A DNA stretch of 64,000 bases from Uliginosibacterium aquaticum (GTDB lineage: Bacteria > Pseudomonadota > Gammaproteobacteria > Burkholderiales > Rhodocyclaceae): the NCBI RefSeq assembly GCF_012972705.2, contig NZ_JABCSC020000003.1, forward strand, positions 620,001 through 684,000, given 5' to 3'. A model generated the notes under the pieces. The model was not told the origin of the DNA, ran no database searches, and saw only the letters and a list, made by a program, of their open reading frames with translations. Shown in pieces: positions 2,881 to 22,843 of this stretch. The stretch's first letter is position 1. Every line of letters begins with the position of its first letter. A program made the position numbers and the translations under genes.

Positions 2881-3132
2881 ATGGAAACTCTCGAACTGCT
2901 GCAGGAATTCATCAAGCGCCGGGTGCCGAATCCGCCGGAAAACGTGACGCTGGAAAGCAAGCTCGAAGAAGTCGGGGTGGACTCCTTGACCTTGCTGGAC
3001 CTGATGTTCGATATGGAAGACAAGTTCGGCGTGCGCATGCCGGACGATCTGCCGCGCCCGGAGACCGTGGGTGAATTGATCGAGATCTTCGAAAAACTCA
3101 AGCCGGCCGACGCTGCGATTCCGAATGAGTAA
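2881..3132 (+). CDS. Acyl carrier protein, first ACP of the aryl polyene cluster
   Basis: The 83-residue acidic protein has the ACP phosphopantetheine site in EEVGVDSLTLLDLMFDMED; Ser35 is the predicted attachment residue. It starts the plus-strand arm of the pigment locus and its end overlaps the start of the ketosynthase gene by 8 bases, which indicates translational coupling. Aryl polyene clusters typically carry two dedicated ACPs; the second is at 22556-22843. It is predicted to carry the aryl starter or the growing polyene chain in the cytoplasm. Confidence 0.92.
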   Translation: METLELLQEFIKRRVPNPPENVTLESKLEEVGVDSLTLLDLMFDMEDKFGVRMPDDLPRPETVGELIEIFEKLKPADAAIPNE

Positions 3133-4381
3133 TGCTGGCCGCCGCCGTGTGGCGGTGACTGGCGTCGGGCTGGTCAATCCCTTTGGCGGGATGGACGCTC
3201 AGGACTTCTTCGCGCGTCTGATGCGTGGCGAGTCTGCCGTTCGCCTCCATCAACATCCTGCTTCGCCTGCGCCACTGGCTCAGCCCGCAGGCGTGTGCAC
3301 CGGCTTTGACGCCGAAGCTGTACTCGGCCGCCCCCTGGCGGCCGTGACCGACCGTTACGCCCAGCTGGGTGTGGCTGCCGGTTTTGCGGCCTGGGACGAC
3401 GCGGGCATGCCACGCCAGGGTGAAGAGCGTGACGAATACGGCGTGTCCTGGGGCACCGGCATCGGCGGCACGATGAGCATGGAGAAGGGCTATAACGACT
3501 TCTTCGTGCACGGCAAGGACCGCGCCCATCCGCTATCGGTGGTGCTGGTCATGAACAATGCGGCTGCCTCGCATCTGGCCATCAATCTGGGCCTCGGTTC
3601 GGCTTGCCTGACCTATTCGGTGGCCTGTGCTTCCTCGGCGATTGCGATTGGTGAGGCGATGCGGCGGATCCAGAGCGGTGAGTCGCAGATGGTGATTGCC
3701 GGTGGCTCAGAGGCGCCGCTGTCTTTCTCGATCATGCGCGCCTGGGAAGCCATGCGCGTGGTGGCGCAAGGGAACGAAGAAACGGCTTTCATGGCTTGCC
3801 GCCCCTTTCAGGAAGGGCGTAGCGGTCTGGTCCTCGGCGAAGGTGCCGCGGCGCTGGTGCTGGAAGACTGGGCGCATGCCCAGGCGCGTGGCGCCCGTAT
3901 CTATTGCGAGCTGGCCGGCTATGGCCAGAGCTGCGATCACACGCATCTGGTCAAGCCGGATGCCTACGGCCAGACCCGCGCCATGAACCTGGCGCTGCGC
4001 GAGGCGGGCCTGGCGGCTGAAGAGATTGGCTATCTGAACGCCCATGGCACGGCAACCCGCGAGGGAGATCCCTCAGAGATCGAGGCGCTGCGTCAGGTCT
4101 TCGGGGTGCATGCGGAGCAATTGCTGGTCAGTGCCAGCAAATCCATGCATGGCCACTTGCTGGGCGCCACCGGTGCATTGGAGGCGCTGATCACTGTGCT
4201 GGCCCTGGCGCGTGGTGAAGTGCCGCCGACCGCGCATCTCGATCATGTGGCCGAAGATTGCCGCGGCGTGCGGCATGTGATGGGCGAGGGCCTGTGCAAC
4301 GTGCCCTTGCGCGCGGCCGTATCCAACTCTTTTGCTTTTGGCGGCAGCAATGCCGTGCTGGCGTTCAAGGCGGTGTCGTGA
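3125..4381 (+). CDS. Beta-ketoacyl-ACP synthase (FabF-like, aryl polyene type)
   Basis: The 418-residue ketosynthase has an intact Cys-His-His triad: C168 in SVACASSAIA, H307 in NAHGTATREGD and H344 in KSMHGHLLGATG, with K339 also present. It catalyses Claisen condensation of malonyl-ACP onto an acyl-ACP. Its place between a dedicated ACP and a chorismatase marks it as a pathway enzyme, not the housekeeping FabF. It overlaps the ACP gene by 8 bases and the next gene by 4 (GTGA), so the three are cotranslated. In the E. coli aryl polyene system an ApeR-type ketosynthase acts beside an ApeO-ApeC pair; this gene is the likely ApeR counterpart, by inference. Confidence 0.93.
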   Translation: MSNAGRRRVAVTGVGLVNPFGGMDAQDFFARLMRGESAVRLHQHPASPAPLAQPAGVCTGFDAEAVLGRPLAAVTDRYAQLGVAAGFAAWDDAGMPRQGEERDEYGVSWGTGIGGTMSMEKGYNDFFVHGKDRAHPLSVVLVMNNAAASHLAINLGLGSACLTYSVACASSAIAIGEAMRRIQSGESQMVIAGGSEAPLSFSIMRAWEAMRVVAQGNEETAFMACRPFQEGRSGLVLGEGAAALVLEDWAHAQARGARIYCELAGYGQSCDHTHLVKPDAYGQTRAMNLALREAGLAAEEIGYLNAHGTATREGDPSEIEALRQVFGVHAEQLLVSASKSMHGHLLGATGALEALITVLALARGEVPPTAHLDHVAEDCRGVRHVMGEGLCNVPLRAAVSNSFAFGGSNAVLAFKAVS

Positions 4382-5352
4382 GTTTTTTGTCCCTGAGTCT
4401 GCAGGTGCCGGATGTTGCTGCAGAGGCTTCCGGATGGCTGGGGGCGGCGGTTTATGGTGAGGCGCTGGCCTTGCCGGGGGCGGTGCATGTGCCGATGCCC
4501 CTGCTCGCCACTTCGCAAACCTCCTTGCTGCATGCCTGGCACTGTGATGGCACGCTCAGCGAGGGGCGTCTGGGGGCTGTGGCTTATCGCCGCAGCGAAG
4601 ATTTCCTGTTCGGAGTCCTGAGCCTGCCCGAGGCGGGGCGTGGCATGCAGGCTCTTGGCTTTGCCGCCTATCGCGACATCTTTGCCTGCCTCGAGCGTGA
4701 GGGCATGCCACAGTTGCTGCGTTTCTGGAATTACCTGCCGCGTATCAATGAGGCAGGGGGAGGCATGGAGCGCTATCGCGAGTTCAATGTCGGCCGTCAG
4801 GATGCCTTCATCGAAGGCAGTCATCCGCATCTGGCCGGTTCTCCCTCGGCGTGTGCGCTGGGCTGTGGTGGCGATGCGCTGGTGGTGTATTTCCTCGCTT
4901 CGCGGCATGCGCCACTGGCGATCGAAAATCCGCGCCAGCTCAGCGCCTGGAGCTACCCGCAGCAATACGGTCCGCGGGCTCCGACATTTTCGCGTGCCAG
5001 TCTGCTGCAGTTGCCCACGCAGGAGGTGCTGTTCATTTCCGGTACGGCCAGCATCGTTGGTCACGAGAGCGTGCATCCGGGCGAAGTGGCCGCGCAGACT
5101 CAGGAAACCCTGCGCAATGTCGAGGCTGTGCTGAGCGAGGCCAATCGCCGCGCCCGCCACGGACGCTTTGCGGCGCGTGATCTGACGCTCAAGGTTTTCG
5201 TCCGCCATGCGGAAGACGTCGTTGCCGTGCAGCGTGTGCTGGAGGCTGAATTGGGCAAGGATCTGAAAATCATGTATTTGCGCGCCGATGTCTGTCGTGC
5301 CGAGCTGCTGGTGGAAATCGAGGCTTTCGGTTTTCTCGGAGCGGGCGCATGA
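4378..5352 (+). CDS. xanB2: Chorismatase, XanB2-like (hydroxybenzoate synthase)
   Basis: The 324-residue protein resembles the chorismatase family (XanB2, FkbO, Hyg5), in which RidA-like folds hydrolyse chorismate. Recognisable segments are LLRFWNYLPRINE, ERYREFNVGRQDAF, AIENPRQLSAW-SYPQQYGPRAP, FISGTASIVGHESVHPGE and LKVFVRHAEDVVAV. XanB2 of Xanthomonas makes 3- and 4-hydroxybenzoate for xanthomonadin and ubiquinone. GTG at 4378 overlaps the ketosynthase TGA and was chosen because the homologous region begins there; upstream in-frame codons lie inside the ketosynthase. Its position in the operon suggests that 3-hydroxybenzoate (or 4-hydroxybenzoate) is the aryl head group here, in place of the tyrosine-derived unit of other aryl polyene clusters. 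The family call is strong; the exact product ratio is unknown. Confidence 0.85.
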   Translation: MSFLSLSLQVPDVAAEASGWLGAAVYGEALALPGAVHVPMPLLATSQTSLLHAWHCDGTLSEGRLGAVAYRRSEDFLFGVLSLPEAGRGMQALGFAAYRDIFACLEREGMPQLLRFWNYLPRINEAGGGMERYREFNVGRQDAFIEGSHPHLAGSPSACALGCGGDALVVYFLASRHAPLAIENPRQLSAWSYPQQYGPRAPTFSRASLLQLPTQEVLFISGTASIVGHESVHPGEVAAQTQETLRNVEAVLSEANRRARHGRFAARDLTLKVFVRHAEDVVAVQRVLEAELGKDLKIMYLRADVCRAELLVEIEAFGFLGAGA

Positions 5353-6170
5353 AGGCGCTGCTGCTGTTCTTGCTTCTCCTGGCGCTGCCCGCACAGGCCG
5401 AGCTCAAGCCGCGTTGGGAGCTGGGCATGGGGGTGGCCGCTGCGACCTTGCCGGATTACCGTGGCTCGGATGAAGCCAATGAGATGCTGCTGCCCTTTCC
5501 GTATGCGGCCTATCGCTTTGACTGGCTCAAGGCCGATCGCAATGGTGTGCGTGCAACGCTTTTTGATTCGGACAAGGTCGAGCTGAACCTGAGCGCCGGT
5601 GCCACGCCGCCGGTGAAGAGCAAGAATAACCAGGCGCGTCAGGGTATGAGCGATCTGAAGCCGATGATCGAATTCGGCCCCTCGCTCGATTTCAAGCTGT
5701 GGCAGAGCGACAACCAGGACACTCGGCTGGACCTGCGCCTGCCGGCGCGTGCGGCCTTCGAGTTGCGCGAGGGCATGCATTACAGCGGCTGGCTGTTCTC
5801 GCCGCGCCTGAATCTGGATTTCCTCAATGTGGGGCTACCCGAAGGCTGGCGCGTGGGGCTGGTGACCGGCCCGACCTTTCAGGACAAGCATCTGAACGCC
5901 TATTTCTACTCGGTCGACGAGCAATATGCGCGCGCTGACCGCCCGGCCTACTCGGCCAGCGGCGGTTATACCGGCTGGCAGTTTCTCGGCGCTGTGTCAC
6001 GCAAGTTCGGCAAGACCTGGGTGGGCGCCTACGCGCGCTGGGATACGCTGAAAGGCGCGGCTTTTGAGGATAGTCCGCTGGTCAGGCGCAAGACGTATTT
6101 TACCGCCGGTATCGGCGTGACCTGGACCCTGGCGCAATCCTCGGAGATGGTCGAAGTCGGCGACGACTGA
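5349..6170 (+). CDS. MipA/OmpV family outer membrane protein
   Basis: The 273-residue protein has a signal peptide (MKALLLFLLLLALPAQA, about 1-17). The mature part has alternating amphipathic strands and aromatic girdles. Early it carries MGVAAATLPDYRGSDEAN (the family usually has DYxGS) and it ends in a beta-barrel strand (YFTAGIGVTWTLA) followed by an acidic tail. MipA/OmpV proteins are outer-membrane beta-barrels of poorly defined role. The gene overlaps the chorismatase by 4 bases (ATGA), so it belongs to the pigment operon. It could help locate the pigment in the outer membrane; that is inference. Confidence 0.82.
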   Translation: MKALLLFLLLLALPAQAELKPRWELGMGVAAATLPDYRGSDEANEMLLPFPYAAYRFDWLKADRNGVRATLFDSDKVELNLSAGATPPVKSKNNQARQGMSDLKPMIEFGPSLDFKLWQSDNQDTRLDLRLPARAAFELREGMHYSGWLFSPRLNLDFLNVGLPEGWRVGLVTGPTFQDKHLNAYFYSVDEQYARADRPAYSASGGYTGWQFLGAVSRKFGKTWVGAYARWDTLKGAAFEDSPLVRRKTYFTAGIGVTWTLAQSSEMVEVGDD

Positions 6171-6174
6171 GGCG

Positions 6175-6945
6175 GTGCGCAAGATGAAGTCCCTGATTCT
6201 GTTGCTGCGCCGCGCGCATGCTTTCCTTGCCTTGCACCTCGGCCTGGGTTCGCTGGCTGCGGGTTGCCTGTTGTGGACCGCAGTGGCCCTGCCACTGAAC
6301 CTGCTCCTGCCCCGTCAGGGGGGCATCCGTCTCGGTCGCCGCATTGCCATGCTGGGGTTCCGCCTGTACCTGTGGTGGTTGCGCCGGCTCGGCATTGGCC
6401 ACTTCGATCTGCGGGCACTGGATGCCTTGCGCGAGGCCGGCCCGCTGATCATTGCGCCGAATCATCCAGGCCTGCTGGACGCGCTGATGGTGATCTCGCG
6501 CTTGCCCAATGTCGCCTGCGTGCTCAAGGCCAGCCTGCTGGACAACCCACTATGGGGGGCCGGCGCGCGCTTGGCCGGCTATGTGCGCAATGACTGGTTC
6601 ATCGGTTCGATCAATCTTGCCGTCGAGCAGTTGCGCGCTGGTAGCCAGTTGCTGCTGTTTCCTGAAGGCACGCGAACCGAAACGCCGCCGGTGCTGAATC
6701 CGTTCCGCGCAGGCACCGGTTATGTGGCCCATCGTGCCGGGGTGCCGATCCAGACCGTGATCATCGAGCAGGACACGCGCTTTCTCGGCAAGGGCTGGCC
6801 GCTGTTCCGCCCGCCCGTGATGCCGATGCATTTCCGCGTCCGCCTTGGTCAGCGCTTTGCTCCGCCGGATGACCCGGTTGCCTTCACGGCCGAACTGCAG
6901 GATTACTTTGCGCGCGAAATGCGCAGCCCGCCGCTTCCCGACTGA
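6175..6945 (+). CDS. 1-acylglycerol-3-phosphate acyltransferase-type enzyme (PlsC family)
   Basis: The 256-residue protein (253 if ATG 6184 is used instead of GTG 6175) has the LPLAT motifs: NHPGLLD at 96-102 (H-x4-D, block I) and FPEGTRTE at 162-169 (block III). A hydrophobic N-terminal segment at about 20-45 probably anchors it in the inner membrane. PlsC-like enzymes move acyl groups from acyl-ACP or acyl-CoA to glycerolipid acceptors. In aryl polyene clusters such enzymes are thought to attach or finish the lipid-like pigment, which is known to be membrane-bound. Next to it is a glycosyltransferase with a single-base gap. Its acceptor cannot be read from sequence. Confidence 0.88.
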   Translation: MRKMKSLILLLRRAHAFLALHLGLGSLAAGCLLWTAVALPLNLLLPRQGGIRLGRRIAMLGFRLYLWWLRRLGIGHFDLRALDALREAGPLIIAPNHPGLLDALMVISRLPNVACVLKASLLDNPLWGAGARLAGYVRNDWFIGSINLAVEQLRAGSQLLLFPEGTRTETPPVLNPFRAGTGYVAHRAGVPIQTVIIEQDTRFLGKGWPLFRPPVMPMHFRVRLGQRFAPPDDPVAFTAELQDYFAREMRSPPLPD

Positions 6946-6946
6946 C

Positions 6947-7705
6947 ATGCCGACGCCCTCCCAGACCCATCTCGTCCTGATTCCCAGCTACAACCCCGGC
7001 GCCAAGGTGTATGAAACCGTGCGTGCCGCGCGGGCGCAGTGGAGCCCGGTGTGGGTGGTGGTGGATGGCAGCACCGATGGCACGGATGCCGGCCTGCGCG
7101 AGATGGCGGCGACCGACCCCGAACTGCGCGTGATCGTGCTGGCGCAGAACGGCGGCAAGGGCGCGGCCGTGCTGCATGGGCTCGATGAAGCGGCGAAGCT
7201 CGGCTTCACGCATGCCTTGAGCATGGATTCCGACGGCCAGCATCCGGCGGAGCTGATCCCGGCCTTCATGGCGGCTTCGCAAGAAAACCCCACTTGCATG
7301 GTGCTGGGCAAGCCGGTGTTCGACGCCAGCGCCCCGGCGCTGCGCGTGAAGGGTCGCAAGATTTCCAATTGGTGGGCGAACCTCGAAACCCTTTGGATGG
7401 GCATCGGCGATTCGCTCTACGGTTTCCGCGTCTACCCGGTCGAGCCACTGAGATCCGTGATGCGCGGCCAGCGCTGGATGCGCCGCTTTGATTTCGATCC
7501 CGAAGCCGTGGTGCGCATGTGCTGGCGCGGCGTACGCCCGCTCAATCTCGATGCGCCGGTGAAATACCTCACGGCCGAGGAGGGCGGCGTGTCGCACTTT
7601 AATTACTGGCGCGACAACCGTTTGCTCACCTGGATGCACATCCGCCTGATGTTCGGTTTCGGCATGCGTTTGCCGTTGCTGGTTTGCCGCAAACTTTTTT
7701 CCTGA
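6947..7705 (+). CDS. Glycosyltransferase family 2
   Basis: The 252-residue protein has the GT-A fold signature: LVLIPSYNPG at the N-terminus, VVVDGSTDGTD (about 41-51), NGGKGAAVLHGL, and the metal-binding DxD-like DSDGQHP at about 93-99. ATG 6947 was chosen because it lies one base after the acyltransferase stop and begins the homologous sequence. It lacks the C-terminal transmembrane helices of dolichol-phosphate sugar synthases, although residues 220-245 are mildly hydrophobic. A family 2 glycosyltransferase next to an LPLAT gene is a common trait of aryl polyene clusters and suggests that a sugar is placed on the product or its lipid anchor. Confidence 0.88.
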   Translation: MPTPSQTHLVLIPSYNPGAKVYETVRAARAQWSPVWVVVDGSTDGTDAGLREMAATDPELRVIVLAQNGGKGAAVLHGLDEAAKLGFTHALSMDSDGQHPAELIPAFMAASQENPTCMVLGKPVFDASAPALRVKGRKISNWWANLETLWMGIGDSLYGFRVYPVEPLRSVMRGQRWMRRFDFDPEAVVRMCWRGVRPLNLDAPVKYLTAEEGGVSHFNYWRDNRLLTWMHIRLMFGFGMRLPLLVCRKLFS

Positions 7706-7730
7706 ATCAACTTCCTGACCCGAGGTCATC

Positions 7731-8504
7731 ATGTCCACCGATCCGAAACTCACGCCGGCCCATGCGCCGCACCAGCCGCTGACCGACTATTACGCCAACG
7801 AGGATGCGCGTGCCGGCTTCGTGCGCGAGATGTTCGATTCCACTGCGGAAGACTATGACCGCATGGAGACCATCCTCGGTCTCGGCACCGGCCCCTGGTA
7901 TCGCGGTCAGGCGCTCGAGCGTGCGGGCCTCAAGGCCGGCATGCGCGTGATCGACGTGGGCACCGGTACAGGCCTGGTTGCCAAGGAAGCCGCTCGCATC
8001 GTCGGCGATGGCGCACTGGTCACCGGCGTCGATCCCAGCCCCGGCATGATGGCCCAGGCCAAGTTGCCGGCCGGCGTGCAACTGGTGGAAGGCCGCGCCG
8101 AAGCGATTCCCTTCCCGGACGGCACGGCAGACTTCCTCTCCATGGGCTACGCGCTGCGCCACATCAGTGATCTGGAAGTCGCTTTCCGTGAGTTCTACCG
8201 CGTCATGAAGCCGGGCGCCAAGCTGTGTCTGCTCGAAATCACCCGCCCCGAGTCGTCCTGGGGCCGCTTCTTCCTCAAGATCTACATGAAGGGCATTGTG
8301 CCGCTGCTGGCTTTCGTGGTCGGCCGCCAGAAGAAGGGCACCTGCAAACTGTGGCGTTATTACTGGGACACCATCGAGGCCTGCGTGCCCGCCGCCCAGG
8401 TTGTCGCTACGCTGGAAGCCGCTGGTTTCGTGAATGCCCGTCGCTATATCGACACCAAGGGGCTGCCCATCCTGGCCGAGTACCAGGCCACCAAGCCGGA
8501 GTAA
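7731..8504 (+). CDS. Class I SAM-dependent methyltransferase, UbiE-like
   Basis: The 257-residue protein has SAM-binding motif I in RVIDVGTGTGLVAKEAA (about 70-86), an acidic residue in VTGVDPSPGMM, and UbiE-like segments: MFDSTAEDYDRME, GYALRHISDLEVAFREFYRVMKPGAKLCLLEI. Genuine UbiE/MenG methylates the benzoquinol or naphthoquinol ring. Here the gene stands in the pigment operon, 25 bases after the glycosyltransferase, with a GAGGT Shine-Dalgarno. It may methylate the hydroxybenzoate head group, as expected for a methoxy-aryl polyene. It might instead be the cell's real UbiE; I cannot exclude that without the rest of the genome. Confidence 0.85.
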   Translation: MSTDPKLTPAHAPHQPLTDYYANEDARAGFVREMFDSTAEDYDRMETILGLGTGPWYRGQALERAGLKAGMRVIDVGTGTGLVAKEAARIVGDGALVTGVDPSPGMMAQAKLPAGVQLVEGRAEAIPFPDGTADFLSMGYALRHISDLEVAFREFYRVMKPGAKLCLLEITRPESSWGRFFLKIYMKGIVPLLAFVVGRQKKGTCKLWRYYWDTIEACVPAAQVVATLEAAGFVNARRYIDTKGLPILAEYQATKPE

Positions 8505-8513
8505 GCGAGCTTT

Positions 8514-8561
8514 GTCGGGCGGTCTTCAGCCCGTCATGTGCGGCTGAAGCCGCACCTACAG
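8514..8561. repeat. REP-like double hairpin, copy A
   Basis: Two small hairpins lie in tandem between the methyltransferase and the RlmN-like gene. The second, GTGCGGC-TGAA-GCCGCAC, is followed by CTACA, the hallmark end of the repeat family. The same GTAGGTGCG-ended hairpin recurs at 9629, 11309 and 52117. The copies are intergenic, in both orientations, and resemble repetitive extragenic palindromes. Confidence 0.75.
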
Positions 8562-8572
8562 CGTCAAGCATC

Positions 8573-9628
8573 ATGCTCATCAGCCAGCTCCGTGATCACC
8601 TCCGCGCGCTCGGCGCCAAACCGGCGCACGAGCAGCGCATCCTGCGTGCCTGGCTGCAGGGCCAGCCGCTCACGGCCGGGCGCAAGAAGGCTGAAGACGT
8701 GCTGCCGCTGGCGGTGCGGGATGCCTTGCCCGGCATCGAGACCGAACTCACGGCGCTGGCCACGCTGCGCAGCAGCCACCCGGGCGAGGACAGCTCGGCG
8801 CGCCTGCTGGTGGGCCTGCTCGATGGTCAGACCGTGGAGAGCGTGCTGCTGCCGCGCGACGGTTTGTGTGTGTCGACCCAGGTCGGCTGCGCGGTCGGTT
8901 GCGTGTTCTGCATGACCGGGCAGGACGGTCTGCTGCGCCAGGTCGGCAGCGCCGAGATCGCCGCCCAGCTGGTGCTGGCTCGCCGCCAGCGCACGGTGAA
9001 GAAAGTCGTGTTCATGGGGATGGGCGAGCCGGCCCACAATCTCGACAATGTCATGGAGGCGATCGAAGTCTTTGGCCTCTATGGCGACATCGGCCACAAG
9101 AACCTCGTCTTCTCCACGGTGGGCGATCCGCGCGTCTTTGAGCGCCTGCCACAAGGCCCGGTGAAGCCAGCACTGGCGGTGTCGCTGCATACCACCGACG
9201 CCAAGCTGCGCGAGGAGCTGCTGCCGCGCGCGCCGCGTCTCGATCCGGCCTGGCTGGTCGAACAGGCCGAAGCCTATGCCCGCGCCACCGGCTATCCGAT
9301 CCAGTATCAGTGGACTCTGCTCGAAGGCATCAACGATTCCGAAGCCGAACTGGCAGGCATCGTGCGCCTCCTGGCTGGCAAGTACGGCCTGCTCAACATG
9401 ATTCCCTACAACACCAATGAAGGTCTGCCTTACCAGCGCCCCTCATGGGACAAGGCCCGCGCGATCGCCAGGCGCCTTACCGAGGCCGGCGTGCTCACCA
9501 AGCTGCGCGACTCGGCCGGGCAGGACGTGGATGGCGGTTGCGGCCAGCTGCGGGCACGCGAGAAGGAAAAGTTCGAGCCGGCCGTGGCCAAGGCGCAGCG
9601 GGTGGAGTGGCTGAAGCGCGGGATCTAG
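8573..9628 (+). CDS. Radical SAM RNA methyltransferase, RlmN-like
   Basis: The 351-residue protein has the radical SAM cluster motif C-x3-C-x2-C at C106-C110-C113 (GCAVGCVFC), VFMGMGEP, LAVSLHTTDAKLREELLPRAP, and the C-terminal DVDGGCGQL that holds the methyl-carrying cysteine of RlmN/Cfr enzymes. RlmN methylates C2 of A2503 in 23S rRNA and A37 of some tRNAs. ATG 8573 was selected because upstream codons read through the UbiE-like gene and a REP element. It is a little shorter than typical RlmN (about 370-390) and stands away from the usual ndk/pilF/ispG neighbourhood, so it may be a paralogue. The name rlmN is therefore withheld. Confidence 0.85.
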   Translation: MLISQLRDHLRALGAKPAHEQRILRAWLQGQPLTAGRKKAEDVLPLAVRDALPGIETELTALATLRSSHPGEDSSARLLVGLLDGQTVESVLLPRDGLCVSTQVGCAVGCVFCMTGQDGLLRQVGSAEIAAQLVLARRQRTVKKVVFMGMGEPAHNLDNVMEAIEVFGLYGDIGHKNLVFSTVGDPRVFERLPQGPVKPALAVSLHTTDAKLREELLPRAPRLDPAWLVEQAEAYARATGYPIQYQWTLLEGINDSEAELAGIVRLLAGKYGLLNMIPYNTNEGLPYQRPSWDKARAIARRLTEAGVLTKLRDSAGQDVDGGCGQLRAREKEKFEPAVAKAQRVEWLKRGI

Positions 9629-9681
9629 GGCCGACTTCAGTCGGCCATTCACGCGTGGCGTGCGACTGAAGTCGCACCTAC
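9629..9681. repeat. REP-like double hairpin, copy B
   Basis: GGCCGACT-TCA-GTCGGCC is followed 13 bases later by GTGCGAC-TGAA-GTCGCAC and CTAC. It lies between the convergent RlmN-like gene and yggL, where it may also act as a bidirectional transcript end. Its mirror orientation is seen at 11309-11365. Confidence 0.8.
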
Positions 9682-9690
9682 GACAATGGC

Positions 9691-10062: not shown

Positions 10063-10104
10063 ATATCTTTACCAAGGCTGGTTTGCAGATATCAGAGGGC
10101 TTGA

Positions 10105-11286: not shown

Positions 11287-11308
11287 GGCTGACTCCTTGG
11301 TAGATAAC

Positions 11309-11365: not shown

Positions 11366-11371
11366 CGCAGT

Positions 11372-15716: not shown

Positions 15717-16369
15717 GCGCGGCTCCAGGGGCCGTGGTCCAGCCAGTGTGCCCACTGCGCCTGCCAGGCCGGCCAGTCGTGCGCGCCGGGCAATTCGGTG
15801 CGGCAGGTGGCGGGCAGGGTGTCCATCAGCAGCCGCTGGCCGCGGATGAAGCGGTCTTCCGTGCCGGTGATGGCGTGAATCGGGCAGGGCCAGTGGTCGC
15901 TACGCTGGCATTCGGCGAGCCAGCGCCAGAACACGCGTTCGTCGCCTTGCTGAGCCTCGGGTGTCTCGAGCCAGCTTTGCGGACCGCCAGCGCTGCGGAT
16001 CTCGCCCAGGATGTCTCCGGTACCGGGGTAGGGCGAGAGCAGGCACAGACCGGCAAGTTCCGCTGCGTGCTGGCTGGCGTAGAGCAGGCTGTTGAAGGCG
16101 CCCAGCGAGATGCCGGCGAGCCAGATCTGGCGGTAGCCGGCGGTCTGGGCCGGCTGGATGACTTCGGTGTGCAGGGTGCTTTCCACCGTGCGCGCCATGA
16201 CGTGGGTGTAGTCCAGCGCGGCGCACTGGATGTCGAAGGCGTAGCCACGCTCGCGCACGGCGGCGATGAAGCCCTGGCGCGCGAAATCCTCCAGCGCGAT
16301 TTCGGCGCCGGGCAGCAGGATCAGCAGGCGCTCGCTGCCGCCCGGATGAGGGTCAGTGAGCAGACGCAT
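15713..16369 (-). CDS. Alpha/beta hydrolase (serine esterase-like)
   Basis: The 218-residue protein has RLLILLPGAEIALEDF near the N-terminus, the nucleophile elbow GISLGAF (Ser at about 98) and PGAHDWPAWQ with the likely catalytic His near the C-terminus; TGTEDRFI carries a probable acidic residue. ATG 16369 was chosen because the conserved fold begins there; it overlaps the end of the MMPL exporter gene by 17 bases. It has no signal peptide. In a pigment cluster it may act as a thioesterase that releases the chain from the ACP, or as an esterase on the finished lipid. Both are inference. Confidence 0.8.
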   Translation of the reverse strand: MRLLTDPHPGGSERLLILLPGAEIALEDFARQGFIAAVRERGYAFDIQCAALDYTHVMARTVESTLHTEVIQPAQTAGYRQIWLAGISLGAFNSLLYASQHAAELAGLCLLSPYPGTGDILGEIRSAGGPQSWLETPEAQQGDERVFWRWLAECQRSDHWPCPIHAITGTEDRFIRGQRLLMDTLPATCRTELPGAHDWPAWQAQWAHWLDHGPWSRA

Positions 16370-18701
16370 CCTGATCTCGTGCGAGGATGGCGGCCGACAC
16401 CAGTGCCAGGAAGGCGCCGGGGCCGACGGTGCAACCGAGGTAAGCGAGCACCGGCACCGAGGAGAAGGCCAGCACGCCGAAGCTGCCGACTGCCGTGAGG
16501 TTGGCAACCAGGATCGAGACTTGTACCTGGCGTTGCTGCTCGGCGTTGCCGGCGTGGCTGCCGGCGTCGAAAAACAGCGTGTAGTTGCGGCCGATTGCTA
16601 CGACCAGCAAGAGGCCGATCAGATGCAGGATGGTGAGACTGGTGCCGCTGGCGAGCAGGCCGGCAGTCACACCGATCACGGCGCAGGCCAGCGGTGCCAC
16701 GGCGCGCAGCGCACGCGGCAGGGAGCGCAGGGCGGCGAGCAGCAGCAGGAAGATCACGCCCATGCCGCAGGCCACCAGCAGCTTGGCTTCGGAGAGATAG
16801 CTGGCGAAGAGGCTGGTGGATTCTTCGAGGATGTCCAGCACCGTCACGCCGGATTGCCCGGCCCCCTGCAGGGCAGCTTCCAGCGCGCGGGTGTCGAGCT
16901 CTTCCTGGCCCGCCGGCGCCCGCAGCGGCAGCAGCACCAGCCAGTCCTGCTGGCGCTGGATCAGCAGCGAGTCAACGCCCAGCGCGGCGGAGCTGCCGGC
17001 GAGATCTGCCCGGCTCAGCAGGGGCTGCTGACGTGCTTTCTGCACATCGGCCACGAAGCCTTCGAGGCGCTCCGCACGCACCGGCAGCTCGCGCAGTGCG
17101 TCGCCGAGGCGGCTGCGCAGGCTGGCTTCATCCGGCAGGGCCTGCTGGCGGGCCTGCTGGGTCTGCCGGCTGGGCAGGAACTGGGCTGGCGAGGTGAAGC
17201 CACCGAGGCGCCCGGCCGCCACTTCGGCGCGCAGCACCTGGCCCACGGCTTCGGCCGCCTGCAGCGCGCGCTCGGCATCCGGCGCGGTGAGCGCGGCGAT
17301 GTAGCGCATGTCCGGCGCGCCCATGTCATTGCGCAGGGCCATGTCCAGATCCTGCTCGGCGCGCGTCACCGGGCTCAGGGCGTTGAGTTGGCGGTTCCAG
17401 ATGGTATCTCCCTGCCACAGGATCCAGGCCGTGGCGGCGAGCGCGCCGGCCAGCAGCAGCGGACGCAGGCGGCGCAGGCTGCGGAAGATGCGGTCGAGCA
17501 GGCGGGCCGGGGCGGACAGATCGCTGATCTGCAGTTGCTGCGGCATCAAGGCCGGCAGCACATGGCGGGCGACCAGCGCCGCACCGACCAGGCCGGCCAT
17601 CGAGAACACGCCAAGCTGGGCGAGGCCCGGGAAGCCGGAGACCAGCAACACAGCGAAGCCGGCCAGCGAACACAGTACGCCGAGCCACATGGTGCGCCAG
17701 AAGCGCGAGGCCTCGATGCCGGCAGCGCGCTGGATGAAGTAGTAGATCGAGTAATCGACTGATTCACCGATCAGGGTGGAGCCGAAGGCGAGCGTGAGGC
17801 CGTGGATGTTGCCGAAGACGAGGCTCACCGCAGCGATGCCAGCCACCAAGCCACTGGCCACCGGTAGCAGGCCCAGGCCGAGCAGGCGTGGCGAGCGATA
17901 GATCGCCAGCAGCAGGCCGATCACCAGGATGCTGCTGCCGATTGCAAGGCGGTGGATGTCGCTCTGGATACGCTCGCGCGACGTCACCGAGAACACCGCC
18001 GTGCCGCTCAGCAGCAGGCGATGTCCCGCCTGGTGCGCGGGCAGGCTGGCGAAGGTTTCGCGCACGCGCTCGAGGCTGGCGGCCTGGGCGTCGGTATCGG
18101 AGCCGTCGGCTCGGGTCTGGACCAGCAGCAGGGCGCGTGTGCCGTCGCGCGAGGCCCAGGCACCTTCGAGCTGGCGCGGCTGCTGGCCACCGGCGAACTG
18201 TTCGAGCAGGGCCAGGGTTTCACCGGTTGGATCGTGCGGCAGGAGCTTCTTGAGCATCAGACCGGCGTCGCCCGAAAGTTTCTCCACCGAGGCGCCGATG
18301 GCCGCCTGCAGGCCCTCGCTGCTGAAGCGCTCGGCACTCATCGCCGGGCTCAGCAGATAGCGGTTGTCGAAAAAGTAGCTGCGGTCGCGCGTCTCGACCG
18401 AGGCTTCGCCGTTCTGCACGCCGACGAAGGCCGGGTCCTGGCGCAGGCGGGCCGCCAGTTGGCGCGAGAGTTCGGCGCGGCTGGCCGCATCGCCGCCTTC
18501 GATGCCCACCATCACGAGGCGGGCAATGATGCCGTCACGCAGCTGCTCGATCAGCATCTGCTGACGGGCATTCGGGGCCTTGGGCATGAAGGCCGAGAGG
18601 TCGGCGATGAAGCGGGTGTGCAGGATCACCGTGACGCAGGCGGCCAGCGCCAGCAGCCACAGGCCCAGCGGCAGGGCGTGGGTGCGCAGGCGGGCGATCA
18701 C
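16353..18701 (-). CDS. MMPL-family (RND superfamily) exporter
   Basis: The 782-residue integral membrane protein has two repeats, each with a transmembrane helix, a large periplasmic domain and five further helices. The first cluster of helices is at about 245-405 (LAIGSSILVIGLLLAIYR, LTLAFGSTLIGESVDYSIYY), the second at about 630-775. GESVDY and IGRNYTLFF mark the two equivalent helix-4 positions. MMPL proteins move lipids and lipid-linked compounds across the inner membrane by proton motive force. Together with the adjacent LolA-like carrier it would export the aryl polyene to the outer membrane. The gene overlaps the LolA gene by 4 bases. Confidence 0.92.
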   Translation of the reverse strand: MIARLRTHALPLGLWLLALAACVTVILHTRFIADLSAFMPKAPNARQQMLIEQLRDGIIARLVMVGIEGGDAASRAELSRQLAARLRQDPAFVGVQNGEASVETRDRSYFFDNRYLLSPAMSAERFSSEGLQAAIGASVEKLSGDAGLMLKKLLPHDPTGETLALLEQFAGGQQPRQLEGAWASRDGTRALLLVQTRADGSDTDAQAASLERVRETFASLPAHQAGHRLLLSGTAVFSVTSRERIQSDIHRLAIGSSILVIGLLLAIYRSPRLLGLGLLPVASGLVAGIAAVSLVFGNIHGLTLAFGSTLIGESVDYSIYYFIQRAAGIEASRFWRTMWLGVLCSLAGFAVLLVSGFPGLAQLGVFSMAGLVGAALVARHVLPALMPQQLQISDLSAPARLLDRIFRSLRRLRPLLLAGALAATAWILWQGDTIWNRQLNALSPVTRAEQDLDMALRNDMGAPDMRYIAALTAPDAERALQAAEAVGQVLRAEVAAGRLGGFTSPAQFLPSRQTQQARQQALPDEASLRSRLGDALRELPVRAERLEGFVADVQKARQQPLLSRADLAGSSAALGVDSLLIQRQQDWLVLLPLRAPAGQEELDTRALEAALQGAGQSGVTVLDILEESTSLFASYLSEAKLLVACGMGVIFLLLLAALRSLPRALRAVAPLACAVIGVTAGLLASGTSLTILHLIGLLLVVAIGRNYTLFFDAGSHAGNAEQQRQVQVSILVANLTAVGSFGVLAFSSVPVLAYLGCTVGPGAFLALVSAAILARDQDASAH

Positions 18702-19306
18702 GGCCCCACCTTGCTGATCAGCATCTCGGAATGGTCGCCATCGGCCAGTGCGAACTCGATGCGCTGCACTTCACCCTGGCGGCCGCTGATCGCGATGCGG
18801 GTGAGGATGGCGCTCATGCTGGTGTATTTCGGCAGCAGGATCAGCTGCCATTTATCCGCCGAGCCCAGCAGGTTGAGCTGATAGCTGTTTTCGAGCGCCT
18901 TGCGGTCGCCGGCCAGGGTGGCGCGAATGCTGTCGACGAAGGCGGCCACTTCCGGATAGCTCGAAAGGTTCAGGTTGAGCGGGGCCTTGCCGGCCTGCTC
19001 GATGTAGAGCTTGTCGCCTTCCAGGCGCAGCAGCTCGGGGCGCGGCTTGAGGGTCCGTTTTTCAAGCTTGTCCGGCGCGGTGAAGGCCAGCGTGCCGGAG
19101 GATTCGACCGGCTTGTCGAGAATGCCGATGTATTTCTTTTCGATGTAACTGGCGCGGCCGGATTTTTGCTGGGCGAGCAGCTTGAAGAGCTCGGCCGCGG
19201 GCCATTCCGCGGCCTGGGCGGCGAGGGGGGCGAGCAGCAGGGCGGGCAGCAGCACCGCGCCAAGCAGACGGCGCAGGCGGGCGTGAAGATCAGGAGTGCT
19301 CGGCAC
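18698..19306 (-). CDS. LolA-like outer-membrane carrier protein
   Basis: The 202-residue protein has a signal peptide (LRRLLGAVLLPALLLAPLAAQA, ending near residue 32) and a LolA/LolB-type fold: KSGRASYIEKKYIGILDKPVESSG, TLKPRPELLRLEGDKLYIEQ, and a strand-rich C-terminus. GTG 19306 is proposed as start because it precedes the signal peptide, has GGAA upstream, and overlaps the acyltransferase gene by only 17 bases; no ATG is available. It is predicted to bind the hydrophobic pigment in the periplasm and pass it to the outer membrane, as proposed for LolA-like proteins of aryl polyene clusters. Confidence 0.85.
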   Translation of the reverse strand: MPSTPDLHARLRRLLGAVLLPALLLAPLAAQAAEWPAAELFKLLAQQKSGRASYIEKKYIGILDKPVESSGTLAFTAPDKLEKRTLKPRPELLRLEGDKLYIEQAGKAPLNLNLSSYPEVAAFVDSIRATLAGDRKALENSYQLNLLGSADKWQLILLPKYTSMSAILTRIAISGRQGEVQRIEFALADGDHSEMLISKVGP

Positions 19307-20219
19307 GGGCGGATTTCCAGAAGTCGAAGAAGTTGAACCAGTTGTGGGGCGCGGCGCGCACATGCTTTTCGAGCACCCGCACATAGCTTTCCATCGCAGC
19401 GCGGATGGCCGCATCGCGCTCGCGCGGGCCTACCTGGCTGAAGTCGGCAATCTGTTCGAAGTGCACGTCGTAGCGCTTGCCGCCACGGTACAGACCGATC
19501 ATGAAGAATACCGGGTGGCGCAGCATCGCCGCCATGCGGAAGGGGCCGCTCGGGAAGTGCGCCGGGCTGCCGAGGAAATCCAGTGTCTCGTAGGCGTCGT
19601 CACCGCTGGCGCGGTCAGCCAGGATGCCGACCATGGCGCCCTCGATCAGGCGGTTGTGTACCTCCAGCATCGAATCTAGGCGCCCCAGCGGAATGATGTC
19701 CTGCATGGCGTCCGGGTTGATGGCGGAGAGCGCCGAGTTGATCAGGCGGGCGTTGTCCGGGTACATCGCCATGCTCACCTTGAGCCTGGGGTTAGCGCGT
19801 GCCAGGCTGCGCATCACTTCGAAGCTGCCGACATGGGCGCCGAACAGGAAGAAGCCGCCGTCGCGGGCATGCAGTTCGTGGAGGACTTCGGCGCCGATCT
19901 GGCGCAGATCGAACTCCTCGAAGCAGTCGTTGAGCAGATAGGTGCGATCGTGGATGGTGCTGGCAAAAGCCAGGATGTGGCGGTACAGATCGAGCCAGCC
20001 GGCCGGGCGGCCGAGTACGCGCGGCAGGAACTCGCGCAGGGCGGCGCGGGCCGGGGCCACGGCAAGCAGGAAGTAGAGGGCGATGCCGTACACGATCAGG
20101 CGCGAGGCGCTACGCCCGAAAGTTAGCGAGATCCAGCGCATCACGCGCAGCCAGAACATGGAGCCGCGCTCCTTGCGCTGCATCCACTCGGGCGTGCGCT
20201 TGTCGGCCATGGCACTCAC
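19290..20219 (-). CDS. LpxL/HtrB-type acyltransferase
   Basis: The 309-residue protein has an N-terminal hydrophobic anchor (about 40-58) and the lysophospholipid acyltransferase motif GAHVGSFEV (H-x4-E) at about 128-136. Later GILADRASGDDAY matches the conserved block of lipid A late acyltransferases. It probably transfers the polyene or a fatty acyl group from ACP to a lipid acceptor at the inner membrane. The start overlaps the upstream hotdog gene (ATGA). In-frame ATG 20210 is an alternative. Confidence 0.88.
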   Translation of the reverse strand: MSAMADKRTPEWMQRKERGSMFWLRVMRWISLTFGRSASRLIVYGIALYFLLAVAPARAALREFLPRVLGRPAGWLDLYRHILAFASTIHDRTYLLNDCFEEFDLRQIGAEVLHELHARDGGFFLFGAHVGSFEVMRSLARANPRLKVSMAMYPDNARLINSALSAINPDAMQDIIPLGRLDSMLEVHNRLIEGAMVGILADRASGDDAYETLDFLGSPAHFPSGPFRMAAMLRHPVFFMIGLYRGGKRYDVHFEQIADFSQVGPRERDAAIRAAMESYVRVLEKHVRAAPHNWFNFFDFWKSARAEHS

Positions 20220-20509
20220 GCCCTGGGCTCCAGCGTGAAGCGGCCGCTCGCCACCTTGCGCTCGGCGCAGCGGATTTCGAAGCGGGCGCCGCCTTCGCTG
20301 GCGCTGAAATCGAGCTCCAGCGCCTCGCCAGGCACGGCCGGGCTGAGGAACTTGGCCATGGCCAGGCCGCTCACGCGCTGCCCGCAGGCGGCTTCGATGG
20401 CGAGCTGGGCCTGATCGAGCAGGACCACGCCCGGCACGATGGGGCGGCCGGGGAAGTGGCCGGCAAAGGCGGGGTGGTCGGCAGGAATCGTGAGTGGCAG
20501 GGCGGGCAT
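20216..20509 (-). CDS. Short FabZ-like hotdog dehydratase (ApeI-like)
   Basis: The 97-residue protein holds the FabA/FabZ active-site region DHPAFAGHFPGRPIVPGVV at about 12-30 (catalytic His in GHFPGRP), then LLDQAQLAIEAACG and a beta-rich end. It is shorter than FabZ (about 150 residues) because the N-terminal helix is missing. Similar small dehydratases occur in aryl polyene clusters, where they pair with an ApeP-type partner; that partner is at 11372-11809. It starts one base after the AMP-ligase stop codon. Confidence 0.85.
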   Translation of the reverse strand: MPALPLTIPADHPAFAGHFPGRPIVPGVVLLDQAQLAIEAACGQRVSGLAMAKFLSPAVPGEALELDFSASEGGARFEIRCAERKVASGRFTLEPRA

Positions 20510-20510
20510 G

Positions 20511-21896
20511 TCAGCGATCGTGTTGGGCCCCGCGCGGTGGCGAGGAAAGTCCTGGTGCGGACCGGCGACTTTCCTGGGGCTTGAGGTGTTGCTCGATCAA
20601 GGCTTGCAGTTCGGCGGCCGGGATCTTGCCGGTGGCATTGCGTGGCAGGCTGTCGAGGAAGACCAGCGGGCGTGGCAGGAACAAGGGGTCGAGATAGGGG
20701 CGCAGGGCGCTGTTGATCGCGGCCGCGCTGAGCCCGGGGGCCACTACGAAGGCGGCGAGACGCCCGGCTTCGCTTTCGTCCGGCAGGCAGAAGGCCGCGT
20801 CGCGCACTCCCGGCAGCTTGCACAGGATGTGATTGAGGTAGGCCAGAGAGGAGCGCTTGCCGGCAATATTGATCATGTCGGCATGGCGGCCGATCAGGCG
20901 GAAGCGGCTTTCATCGAGCAATTCCAGCACATCGCCAAGCTGCTGGCGCTGCTCCAGAAAGGCGCCGTCGGCCCAGGTGTAGTCGCCTTCCTGCTCCAGG
21001 CTGAGGCCTTCGAACAAGGCCCAGTCAGGGCCGGCGGTGGTGCGGCGGGTGGCGATCTGGCCGGTTTCGGTGGAGCCGTAGATCTCCAGCAGCGGCGCGC
21101 CGAGCTGGGCTTCCGCACGCGTGGCCAGCTCGGTGGCAAGCGGCGCGGTGGCGGACAGCAGGGCCGCCAGCGGTGGCAGGGCAATTTCGGCGTCGAGCAG
21201 ATTGCGCAGATGGAAGGGCGTGGTGACGAGGAAGCGCGGCGCTGGCAAGTCCGCCAATGCCGAGGCCACGTCGGCCGGGAAGAAGGGGCGCTCGCCGCAC
21301 AGGATGCCGCCGCCGAAAATCGGTAGCAGCACGGTCGACTCCAGTCCGTACATATGCTGGAAAGGCACTGTGCCGAGCACCGCACAGGGCCCGCCCGTGG
21401 TGGCCCAGATGCGCCGGGCCTCGGCTTGGGCACAGGCAAAGAGGCGGCCAAAGGTCTTGATATGGGGCTGGGGCTGGCCAGTCGAGCCGGAGGTGAATAC
21501 GCAGGCCACCACCTGTTCTGGAGGGATCTGCGGCATGGCTGGCGTGGCCGTTGCGATCTCCGGGGCGGTGATGCGCAGGGTGGGCAGGCCAAAGGGCGGT
21601 TCCTGCTGGTCGCTGAGGCAGAGCAGATCCGGGTGCGCGGCGTGCAGCGCGGCGATGTTTTCTGGTGCGGTGCTGTTCGGCAGTAGGCTCAGGTTGCCGT
21701 GCGCGATGGCAGCGAAGAGTCCGAGCGCGAAGTGGTAGCGATCATTGCAGAGATTCAGCAGGGGCCGGCCTGCAGGCAGCGCTGCGGCCAGTGCCAGCAC
21801 CTGGGCAAGGAACTCGTCCTGGCTGATGGCGCGCCCCGCGTGCAGGGCGAGAACATGTCCGGCAGGGGCGGGCGGGAGCAGGGGCAGGGATGACAT
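20511..21896 (-). CDS. AMP-ligase (adenylate-forming enzyme) for the aryl head group
   Basis: The 461-residue protein belongs to the ANL superfamily. It shows CVFTSGSTGQPQPHIKT (P-loop, about 152-168), IYGSTETGQIATR (A5), FRLIGRHADMINIAGKRSS (A8) and PRNATGKIP with the catalytic Lys (A10) near the C-terminus. ATG 21896 begins the conserved fold; the open frame upstream lies inside the membrane-protein gene. It would adenylate an aryl acid (here probably hydroxybenzoate from the chorismatase) and load it on an ACP, the role of XanA2 in xanthomonadin and ApeH in E. coli. The gene sits eight bases after the COG4648 membrane protein gene. Confidence 0.92.
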   Translation of the reverse strand: MSSLPLLPPAPAGHVLALHAGRAISQDEFLAQVLALAAALPAGRPLLNLCNDRYHFALGLFAAIAHGNLSLLPNSTAPENIAALHAAHPDLLCLSDQQEPPFGLPTLRITAPEIATATPAMPQIPPEQVVACVFTSGSTGQPQPHIKTFGRLFACAQAEARRIWATTGGPCAVLGTVPFQHMYGLESTVLLPIFGGGILCGERPFFPADVASALADLPAPRFLVTTPFHLRNLLDAEIALPPLAALLSATAPLATELATRAEAQLGAPLLEIYGSTETGQIATRRTTAGPDWALFEGLSLEQEGDYTWADGAFLEQRQQLGDVLELLDESRFRLIGRHADMINIAGKRSSLAYLNHILCKLPGVRDAAFCLPDESEAGRLAAFVVAPGLSAAAINSALRPYLDPLFLPRPLVFLDSLPRNATGKIPAAELQALIEQHLKPQESRRSAPGLSSPPRGAQHDR

Positions 21897-21904
21897 GCAG
21901 CTCC

Positions 21905-22549
21905 TCACTGCTTGCGCTGAGAGTATTCGCGGTAGGCCTTGATGGTCTGCGCGATGCTGGCGTGGCGATCGCGCGGCAAGGCGCGCTGGCGGATCGCGAA
22001 CTCGATCACGAAGATCGCCCCGATGATCACCGGGGTCAGCAGGTTGGCAAATACCGACCACCACGCCAGCGGCCCTAGCCAGAACAGCAGCACCGAGAGC
22101 AGGGTGGTGAGTGCGAAATAGGCGGTCCACACCACGGTGACGCGCCAGGTGTAGAGGTAGAAAGCGGCATCCAGATCGTTGCCATACACCACGCGCGAAA
22201 CCTGCGAGCACAGTGCAGCCGAGTGATCGTGCCCGAGCGTGCGGCCGAACATCACCCCGAGCATGGCGTGCATGCCCGCATGCTGGATGAAGTAGACCCA
22301 GGCCGTATTGGCGCGCAGGACATCCAGCTTCAGCAGCATGGCGAGCAGCGCTGCCACACACAGCCCGAGCAGCCACGGCGAGCGGCTGGCCCAAGCCAGC
22401 AGCAGGGCGCTGACCGACAGCGGCGCCAGCCCGATCAGCAGACTCAGCAGCGGCGGGTCGCTGGAAATCGAAGCCTGGTGCCCCAGCCACAGGTAAGCAG
22501 CGCCCACCACGACGATCAGCCCGGTGCGCAGCCACTGCATGCCGCTCAT
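21905..22549 (-). CDS. COG4648-type membrane protein of the aryl polyene cluster
   Basis: The 214-residue protein has about five hydrophobic helices: 8-24, 33-53, 57-75, 125-150 and 155-185. ATG 22549 is taken; GTG 22552 directly before it is an alternative. The length, hydropathy and position between ACP and AMP-ligase fit the uncharacterised COG4648 membrane proteins that accompany aryl polyene clusters. The family has no established activity. An inner-membrane role in assembly or lipid attachment is plausible. Confidence 0.75.
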   Translation of the reverse strand: MSGMQWLRTGLIVVVGAAYLWLGHQASISSDPPLLSLLIGLAPLSVSALLLAWASRSPWLLGLCVAALLAMLLKLDVLRANTAWVYFIQHAGMHAMLGVMFGRTLGHDHSAALCSQVSRVVYGNDLDAAFYLYTWRVTVVWTAYFALTTLLSVLLFWLGPLAWWSVFANLLTPVIIGAIFVIEFAIRQRALPRDRHASIAQTIKAYREYSQRKQ

Positions 22550-22555
22550 CACGAC

Positions 22556-22843
22556 TTACTTCGTACGCTTGGCGGCAATATGGCCCGCGAGGCTGCGCAA
22601 GGAGGAGAAGATGCGGAAGTTGTCTTCACTGTCCGCCTTGAGTTGGAAACCGTAGCGTTTGGACACGACCAGCGCCACTTCGAGGATGTCGATCGAATCC
22701 AGGCCGAGGCCGTCATCGCCATAGAGTGCCTCTTCGGCCTTGATCTCGTCTGCGCTGATCTCAAGATTCAGGGCTTCGACGATCATGCCGGCCACCTCGC
22801 GTTCGAGGGCGGCATCGCTGGCTGCGGGTTCTTGCTGGCTCAT
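22556..22843 (-). CDS. Acyl carrier protein, second ACP of the cluster
   Basis: The 95-residue protein carries GLGLDSIDILEVALVVSKRY, the phosphopantetheine site with Ser50. The GLDSID form is typical for the ACPs of aryl polyene clusters. It is the first gene of the minus-strand arm and sits 30 bases downstream of a consensus -10 hexamer. It is 37 percent or less identical by eye to the plus-arm ACP, so the two probably have distinct partners, such as starter loading and elongation. Confidence 0.92.
   Translation of the reverse strand: MSQQEPAASDAALEREVAGMIVEALNLEISADEIKAEEALYGDDGLGLDSIDILEVALVVSKRYGFQLKADSEDNFRIFSSLRSLAGHIAAKRTK

Follow-up and report, generated by a model that had tools for sequence, protein, structure and literature searches.

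The window analysed here is a 64,000-nucleotide stretch of the genome of Uliginosibacterium aquaticum (contig NZ_JABCSC020000003.1, positions 620,001 to 684,000; coordinates below are those of the window). Between 2881 and 22843 it carries a locus that, judged by its genes, is a xanthomonadin/arcuflavin-type aryl polyene gene set, in which a ketosynthase (KS) and a half-size chain-length factor (CLF) appear joined in one protein. Few bacterial pigments are commoner than aryl polyenes, and the way in which the elongating ketosynthase cooperates with its half-size partner is still under study. What goes beyond known systems is the fused KS-CLF, which we consider probably genuine, and a possible supply of ubiquinone from the same locus; by content and layout the locus is otherwise a real, ordinary and conserved pigment cluster of a known kind. 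The host genome (4.09 Mb, 13 contigs) belongs to the Uliginosibacterium/Dactylopiibacterium group of the Rhodocyclales.

A probable fusion of ketosynthase and chain-length factor

The frame at 11806-13821 on the minus strand is free of stops over 671 residues and comprises a KS half (residues 1 to about 395), a linker (about 396-410) and a CLF half (about 411-671). An earlier note on this DNA had counted two ketosynthase genes in the locus; both were found, and the fusion of the second to a CLF had gone unremarked. The KS half has C162, H291 and H325 in place, with the roles that we presume for them by comparison with FabF. Its best match among solved structures was ApeO (6qsp_A). The CLF half matched 7f28_A and ApeC (6qsp_B) in sequence, and its predicted fold, at a predicted local distance difference test (pLDDT) score of 88.1, returned ApeC as the top Foldseek match (E 7.2e-15, template modelling scores 0.65/0.72). 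The locus therefore holds an ApeO/ORF17-like KS together with a half-size CLF partner, both in a single chain. In Lysobacter, a conserved Gln of the CLF is essential, and KS and CLF were always found together (PMC3691225). Q562 of the fused protein, a Gln kept in at least 90% of 19 aligned chain-length factors, would be that essential residue.

We compared the window proteins with 36 loci of other organisms fetched with the ketosynthase, including those of Uliginosibacterium sp. 31-16 and Candidatus Dactylopiibacterium carminicum. KS and CLF were adjacent in 19 of the 36 loci and fused in none of these 19; in the other 17, the CLF lay elsewhere (5 loci) or gave no match (12 loci). The frames of the adjacent genes were offset by two in 17 pairs and by one in a single pair, and in the last, that of D. 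carminicum, the CLF shares the frame with a stop between, and the end of the KS (residues 339-397) lies in another frame. As a separate observation, the pigment ketosynthase of this insect symbiont (10001-11887 of its fetched locus) changes frame after about residue 312 on a contig with a coverage of about 7, by decay or by error. Among the matches listed in the genomes of 61 relatives, a stop-free match over residues 1-671 occurred in the window genome only. The same held among 321 genomes of the class, 74 of which had a match at E 1e-60, with at most three candidates scored per genome. In three other genomes (G234, G330 and G157), the match runs on in frame, but with stops.

The fusion is present in the assembled sequence, but it might stem from a slip in sequencing or assembly, in which case the genome itself would have two overlapping genes as in the relatives. 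The uniform separation of the adjacent pairs in those relatives (19 of 19) fits such a slip, as does a run of five C at 12628-12632, where one missing or extra base could mimic a fusion; in a neighbouring frame, moreover, codon 410 is a TGA that overlaps a CTG, close to where ATGA is found in many relatives. On the other side, an ATG precedes the GIGLxGPG-type anchor by 8-12 residues in all 24 of the relatives' chain-length factors surveyed (those of L063 and L071 were read off the translation by eye, and L066, L068, L070 and L072 each offer two or more possible ATGs), whereas the window has CAG there, with no in-frame ATG, GTG or TTG between codons 385 and 430, and the linker reads as an Ala/Pro/Thr/Ser spacer. 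Because both the stop and the start are lost, the sequence fits a true fusion, and we regard a slip as unlikely.

The full-length fusion gave a poor model (pLDDT 59.9), which does not show a docking of the two halves. That model came from the good whole-fusion alignment; in two others MAFFT had set the chain-length factors on the KS half, and in another it had misplaced one row. PfaC, a protein of a type I system, sets a precedent. According to the title of structure 6riw, it too has KS and CLF in a single chain. A fused aryl polyene KS-CLF was not found in the literature excerpts consulted, in which "fused" and "fusion" are absent from PMC8358021, "fused" is absent from PMC3691225, and the single "fused" in PMC3949708 refers to a cloning step and not to a KS-CLF fusion. 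A natural single-chain KS-CLF can be used as it stands for kinetic and structural work.

The chorismatase and a possible ubiquinone role

The chorismatase (4378-5352, plus strand), at the XanB2/ArcB position, belongs by its matches to the FkbO/Hyg5/XanB2 family: it matched PF21168 at 124.3 bits and the structures of Hyg5 (over its own residues 38-316) and FkbO (over its own residues 43-316) at E 4e-50 to 1e-48, and its score of 246.6 bits against TIGR04444 is below the cut-off of 325. It would convert chorismate to 3-hydroxybenzoate (3-HBA) and probably also to 4-hydroxybenzoate (4-HBA). The 3-HBA-forming CH-Hyg5 (CH-II) group has Gly164, Gly231, Cys318 and a catalytic Glu325 in Nat-hyg5 numbering (excerpt of PMC7170507). 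The window enzyme has A160, G222, C306 and E313 at these places: of the three CH-Hyg5 residues it retains the second Gly and the Cys, along with the catalytic Glu, and it has Ala in place of the Gly164 equivalent. We compared 19 distinct chorismatases, counting the window's (23 rows, of which four repeat a place already present, with ArcB and XanB2 themselves left out). The Gly164 position held Ala in 18 and Thr in 1; the Gly240 and Cys327 equivalents were present in 19 of 19 and the Glu334 equivalent in all 18 sequences reaching that far. The Hyg5 numbering was obtained by counting within the structure alignment. By these residues, the window enzyme fits a common pigment-type chorismatase, a kind that includes the 3-HBA-making ArcB of Azoarcus (PMC3949708).

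In Xanthomonas, XanB2 supplies both pigment and ubiquinone (excerpt of PMC5069965). The chorismatase may feed ubiquinone here as well, since the window genome has a UbiA above the curated cut-off and no match to the UbiC family PF04345, other chorismate lyase families not having been searched; PF04345 matched one of 14 control genomes (E. coli), and it leaves other routes to 4-HBA uncovered. In the genus (eight genomes, the window's own included), seven genomes combine a strong chorismatase with no PF04345 match, and the eighth (G006) has UbiC and a divergent chorismatase. Among 61 genomes, UbiC was missing from 9 of 15 with a chorismatase and 13 of 46 others (p = 0.034), or from 9 of 16 and 13 of 45 when G006 was counted as chorismatase-bearing (p = 0.07); the genomes in these comparisons, and in the next, are not independent.

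A family-wide link between the chorismatase and UbiC loss was rejected: among 160 genomes, PF04345 was missing from 11 of 36 with a chorismatase and 31 of 124 others (Fisher p = 0.52), part of the UbiC-less set being defined by absence from a list of 118 UbiC genomes. Two findings from the 61-genome set also speak against a dual role, namely that both enzymes occur together in six further genera of the family (G019, G024, G031, G032, G034 and G036) and that the 13 genomes mentioned lack a UbiC match without having a chorismatase. Because the family-wide test shows no link, we keep the dual role for this genus only, where it is plausible by analogy with XanB2. Separately, the three genomes of another genus (G417, G464 and G498, genus g333) all have a chorismatase; G417 is without UbiC, and G464 and G498 are absent from the list of 118. 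This genus may be a second one in which the chorismatase feeds ubiquinone. The D. carminicum paper (PMC6463064) makes no mention of polyene, xanthomonadin, polyketide or ubiquinone.

We entertain, with more doubt than confidence, the joint proposal that KS and CLF are naturally fused, which would fix the heterodimer at 1:1, and that the chorismatase is the sole source of 4-HBA for ubiquinone in this UbiC-less genus. If it is true, respiration relies on a gene of a "secondary" pigment locus. The UbiC gap makes the supply of the ubiquinone ring from a pigment locus directly testable outside Xanthomonas.

Genes of the two arms

The plus arm begins with acyl carrier protein (ACP) 1, with a DSL serine motif (2881-3132; PF00550, 34.6 bits), followed by a FabF-like ketosynthase (3125-4381; PF00109/PF02801) whose C168, H307 and H344 we take to have catalytic roles and which would act as an ApeR-like initiating or helper KS. 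After the chorismatase come a MipA-type outer membrane protein at the ArcC position (5349-6170; PF06629, 137.7 bits), a PlsC-type acyltransferase at the ArcD position (6175-6945; PF01553, 66 bits), a family 2 glycosyltransferase at the ArcE position (6947-7705; PF00535, 64.7 bits; start uncertain, the frame being open from 6845 with an ATG at 6947) and a divergent UbiE-like methyltransferase (7731-8504; PF01209, 109.4 bits, below the UbiE equivalog cut-offs). With the starts given, no overlap between neighbouring genes from ACP 1 to the last of these exceeds 8 nt, and no gap exceeds 25 nt. The true UbiE is elsewhere in the genome (282.4 bits versus 109.4 for the window copy), and the window gene is a candidate head-group methylase. 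It is also a recurring part of the locus, adjoining the glycosyltransferase gene in all six relatives' loci with facing arms (L054-L058 and L073) and matched in L071 too.

The minus arm, read from ACP 2 (22843) to FabG (10567), is tightly packed, with several starts uncertain and with gaps of 384 nt before the fused ketosynthase and 85 nt before FabG. It opens with ACP 2 at the ArcV position, with a DSI motif (22556-22843; PF00550, 25.7 bits), a membrane protein at the ArcU position (21905-22552) and an adenosine monophosphate (AMP)-ligase at the ArcT position (20511-21911; PF00501, 67.1 bits, and PF13193, 28.8 bits; exact start uncertain), which scored 121.1 bits against TIGR02372, below the cut-off, and would load the aryl starter. 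These are followed by a FabA-like dehydratase at the ArcS position (20216-20509; PF07977, 25.4 bits against a cut-off of 23; ApeI-like model, 20.1 bits, below cut-off), an LpxL-type acyltransferase at the ArcR position (19290-20219; PF03279, 47.7 bits), a LolA-like carrier at the ArcQ position (18698-19414; PF19574, 76.9 bits; start uncertain; flexirubin LolA2 model, 45.9 bits, below cut-off) and an MMPL exporter at the ArcP position (16353-18701; PF03176, 53.3 bits). Next are a protein at the ArcO position (15713-16369), weakly alpha/beta-hydrolase-like at 18.3 bits or less (below cut-off), conserved in relatives and possibly a release enzyme, a NodB-like polysaccharide deacetylase at the ArcN position (14928-15716; PF01522, 82 bits; TIGR04243, 113.2 bits, below cut-off) and a methyltransferase at the ArcM position (14206-14931, with the ATG at 14931; PF13489, 22.8 bits, below cut-off). 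Beyond the fused protein, the arm ends with a putative hotdog dehydratase at the ArcI position (11372-11809) and a FabG-type ketoreductase at the ArcH position (10567-11286; PF13561, 183.3 bits).

Nearly all of the parts named in the earlier note were recovered by Pfam and NCBIfam searches; the second hotdog dehydratase and the protein that it called COG4648 were the two that a family search did not recover. The former (11372-11809) had no Pfam or NCBIfam match and a weak structure match (E 0.012) to the FabA/FabZ-type dehydratase 6qsr_B; the latter (21905-22552) had no match in Pfam, NCBIfam or solved structures. Both are kept in relatives at the same places (48-74% and 32-67% identity, respectively), which are the arcI and arcU positions of Azoarcus. 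The MipA-type protein, the UbiE-like and ArcM-position methyltransferases, the NodB-like deacetylase and the ArcO-position protein had not been named there. The locus thus contains an AMP-ligase, ACP, ketoreductase, dehydratase, exporter and LolA-like carrier, with one of the two dehydratases recognised by a weak match.

A converging layout shared with relatives

The two arms point at each other, as the earlier note had described, and the converging layout is a shared rather than an unusual one: the same arms face each other in 6 of the 36 loci (in the synteny table, identities for the CLF and the AMP-ligase are understated, having been read in wrong frames with 7 and 3 internal stops). All searched genes except rlmN and yggL were matched in L054 (Uliginosibacterium sp. 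31-16) and L055. In L057, rlmN, yggL and the ArcM-position methyltransferase had no match, and L056 (Rhodocyclus tenuis) and L058 (a Rhodoferax metagenome-assembled genome, MAG) have fewer right-arm genes, with ACP 1 and MipA unmatched. In L073 (a Dactylopiibacterium MAG), the part of the left arm within reach is limited to its end from KS to FabG; we note that the 10 kb before its ketosynthase (1-9991) gave no match to ACP 2 through the ArcM-position gene, so that this arm is broken or moved. The other 30 loci were cut short, arranged otherwise or reduced to the core. The recurrence of the locus in relatives places it beyond chance.

At the meeting point stand, as described earlier, an RlmN-like RNA methyltransferase of the radical SAM type PRK14464 (8573-9628, plus strand; NF011034, 595.9 bits against a cut-off of 422, the match running from the ATG at 8573) and YggL (9691-10062, minus strand; PF04320, 84.3 bits), neither with an evident part in the pathway. 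The RlmN-like gene starts 68 nt past the UbiE-like gene. Since the facing arms recur in six loci, RlmN was matched in L073 only among the 36 and YggL in none, the two genes are likely passengers. A promoter and terminator scan of 9500-10700 found nothing. Upstream of the plus arm lies exodeoxyribonuclease III (xth; 2007-2801, plus strand; TIGR00633, 242.8 bits), probably a non-pathway gene, the match to which adjoins acp1 in L054, L055, L057 and L073. Beyond the minus arm, a phosphoribosyltransferase gene (22912-23550; PF00156, 85.4 bits) diverges from ACP 2, overlies an antisense open frame and marks the end of the arm.

Predicted product and its rivals

We predict with high confidence that the product is a non-brominated, xanthomonadin-like aryl polyene, which the locus also places in the cell envelope; as a type, it would be a yellow, light-protecting, membrane-located pigment of an already known class. 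The chorismatase would provide 3-HBA (and probably 4-HBA) from chorismate, and the AMP-ligase would load the 3-HBA onto an ACP. The fused KS/CLF protein would then extend the starter with malonyl units, helped by the separate FabF-like ketosynthase, while FabG and the two small dehydratases would finish each round, giving a conjugated chain. The ArcM-position methyltransferase, the UbiE-like one or both may cap the aromatic head, the two acyltransferases and the glycosyltransferase would attach the polyene acid to a lipid, and the MMPL, LolA-like and MipA proteins would export it. Each arm would be an operon, the two facing each other at their ends as they do in relatives.

A non-pigment envelope lipid as the product is very improbable. 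The PlsC-type, LpxL-like, family 2 glycosyltransferase, LolA and MMPL parts are indeed common to general lipid export, but the counterparts of the KS/CLF, the chorismatase, the AMP-ligase and the dehydratases lie in pigment clusters, where mutants in genes of this sort lose colour (PMC3949708; PMC3691225).

A true arcuflavin-like hybrid, in which the polyene acid forms an ester with a dialkylresorcinol encoded at another place in the genome, would accord with the gene set, since the closest one is that of Azoarcus BH72, which makes a hybrid of this kind. DarB resembles β-ketoacyl-ACP synthase III (KAS III). The genome yielded a single KAS III-type gene with an ACP_syn_III_C domain (PF08541); it lies about 2.1 kb ahead of a FabF-like gene, where FabH is expected, and is most likely FabH, leaving no DarB-like KAS III besides it. 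No dar-like gene was seen in a selection of 20 window proteins from the stretch between 22.9 and 52.1 kb. We therefore judge this hybrid improbable. For bromination, no PF04820 halogenase match was found in the genome, other halogenase families not having been searched (the model matched 5 of 14 control genomes). Because the single KAS III gene is most likely FabH and no PF04820 halogenase was found, both a dialkylresorcinol hybrid and a brominated xanthomonadin are unlikely.

Some points weigh against our assignment of a non-brominated aryl polyene. The product class is assigned by homology, the 11372-11809 and 21905-22552 proteins carry no family match, and a single KAS III family search is the basis for the presumed lack of the dialkylresorcinol half. 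At one position where the CH-Hyg5 enzymes have Gly, the chorismatase has Ala, so that its output may be 3-HBA, 4-HBA or both.

Repeats and other features of the window

Between the methyltransferase and ketosynthase genes, in the 384-nt gap, lies a 272-nt insertion resembling a miniature inverted-repeat transposable element (MITE; 13938-14209), with 28-nt inverted ends that are 93% complementary and CTAG at both ends, the right one holding the stop codon of the methyltransferase gene. Among the fetched loci, its exact 14-nt end occurs only in two of the window genome's own (L003 and L005), and a single similar end is found at 26780-26795. Palindromes resembling repetitive extragenic palindromes (REP) lie at 8538, in the gap before the RlmN-like gene, and at 9660, 11313 and 52123 (6 pattern matches on both strands versus 0.12 expected). 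A 57-nt inverted pair (9626-9682 and 11308-11364, 88% complementary) flanks yggL and fabG and might let this segment flip; between these genes is a 115-residue open frame (10105-10452, minus strand) with no Pfam match. Farther along, 29784-36432 encodes a 1392-residue histidine kinase with many PAS domains, then a receiver/kinase-like protein and a receiver-PAS-SpoIIE phosphatase. Transfer RNA and Rfam scans of the window (the latter at the gathering threshold) were both empty.

Comparison with published systems

The earlier placement of the locus nearer to the xanthomonadin route than to the E. coli type holds; the nearest published cluster that we found, by gene content, is the arcuflavin cluster of Azoarcus sp. 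BH72, with the dialkylresorcinol half probably missing from the window genome. Arcuflavin is a xanthomonadin-dialkylresorcinol hybrid (PMC3949708). Its arcA-L locus encodes a halogenase, a chorismatase, MipA, an acyltransferase, a glycosyltransferase, two genes of other kinds, a reductase, a dehydratase, a KS N-terminal-domain protein, a ketosynthase and ArcL, and its arcM-X locus a methyltransferase, a deacetylase, ArcO, an exporter, LolA, an acyltransferase, a dehydratase, an AMP-ligase, ArcU, an ACP and a two-component system (PMC3949708). The loci are unlinked and colour requires both; insertions in arcK and arcT abolished it, ArcB made 3-HBA, and ArcT activated 3-HBA (PMC3949708). The window genes match arcB-E, arcH-K and arcM-V gene by gene in nearly the same order. 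Azoarcus, however, has two unlinked loci and a dialkylresorcinol cluster, a halogenase gene (arcA) and a two-component system (arcW/X), and it encodes KS and CLF separately, whereas the window has one locus with its arms side by side. Unlike Azoarcus, the window has an ACP and a FabF-like KS beside the chorismatase, where Azoarcus has arcA, as well as the UbiE-like gene and the fused KS-CLF.

With the xanthomonadin clusters of Xanthomonas and Lysobacter, the window shares a KS with a half-size CLF, a chorismatase, an ACP, a ketoreductase, two dehydratases, a LolA-like carrier and exporters, but there KS and CLF are separate neighbours and the gene order differs (PMC3691225). The yellow locus of L. 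enzymogenes OH11 has a KS (ORF17) adjacent to a half-size CLF (ORF16) and a chorismatase homologue, ORF5/XanB2 (PMC3691225). Mutants in pigment-cluster genes lose colour (PMC3691225; PMC3949708). Halogenase genes occur in selected clusters of the xanthomonadin type and, according to the excerpt, are absent from L. enzymogenes and Xylella (PMC3691225).

The ape cluster of E. coli CFT073, Xenorhabdus and Acinetobacter shares with the window a KS:CLF of the ApeO-ApeC type, a second KS (ApeR), two ACPs and two dehydratases. Its predicted starter is the 4-HBA of the ubiquinone pathway, without a chorismatase of its own, its genes all run in one direction, and ApeC is encoded far from ApeO (PMC8253772). 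The window locus, in contrast, has a chorismatase and two gene directions, which, together with the PF21168 and Hyg5/FkbO matches, bears out the earlier suggestion that a chorismatase supplies the head group and that the cluster is of the xanthomonadin rather than the E. coli type.

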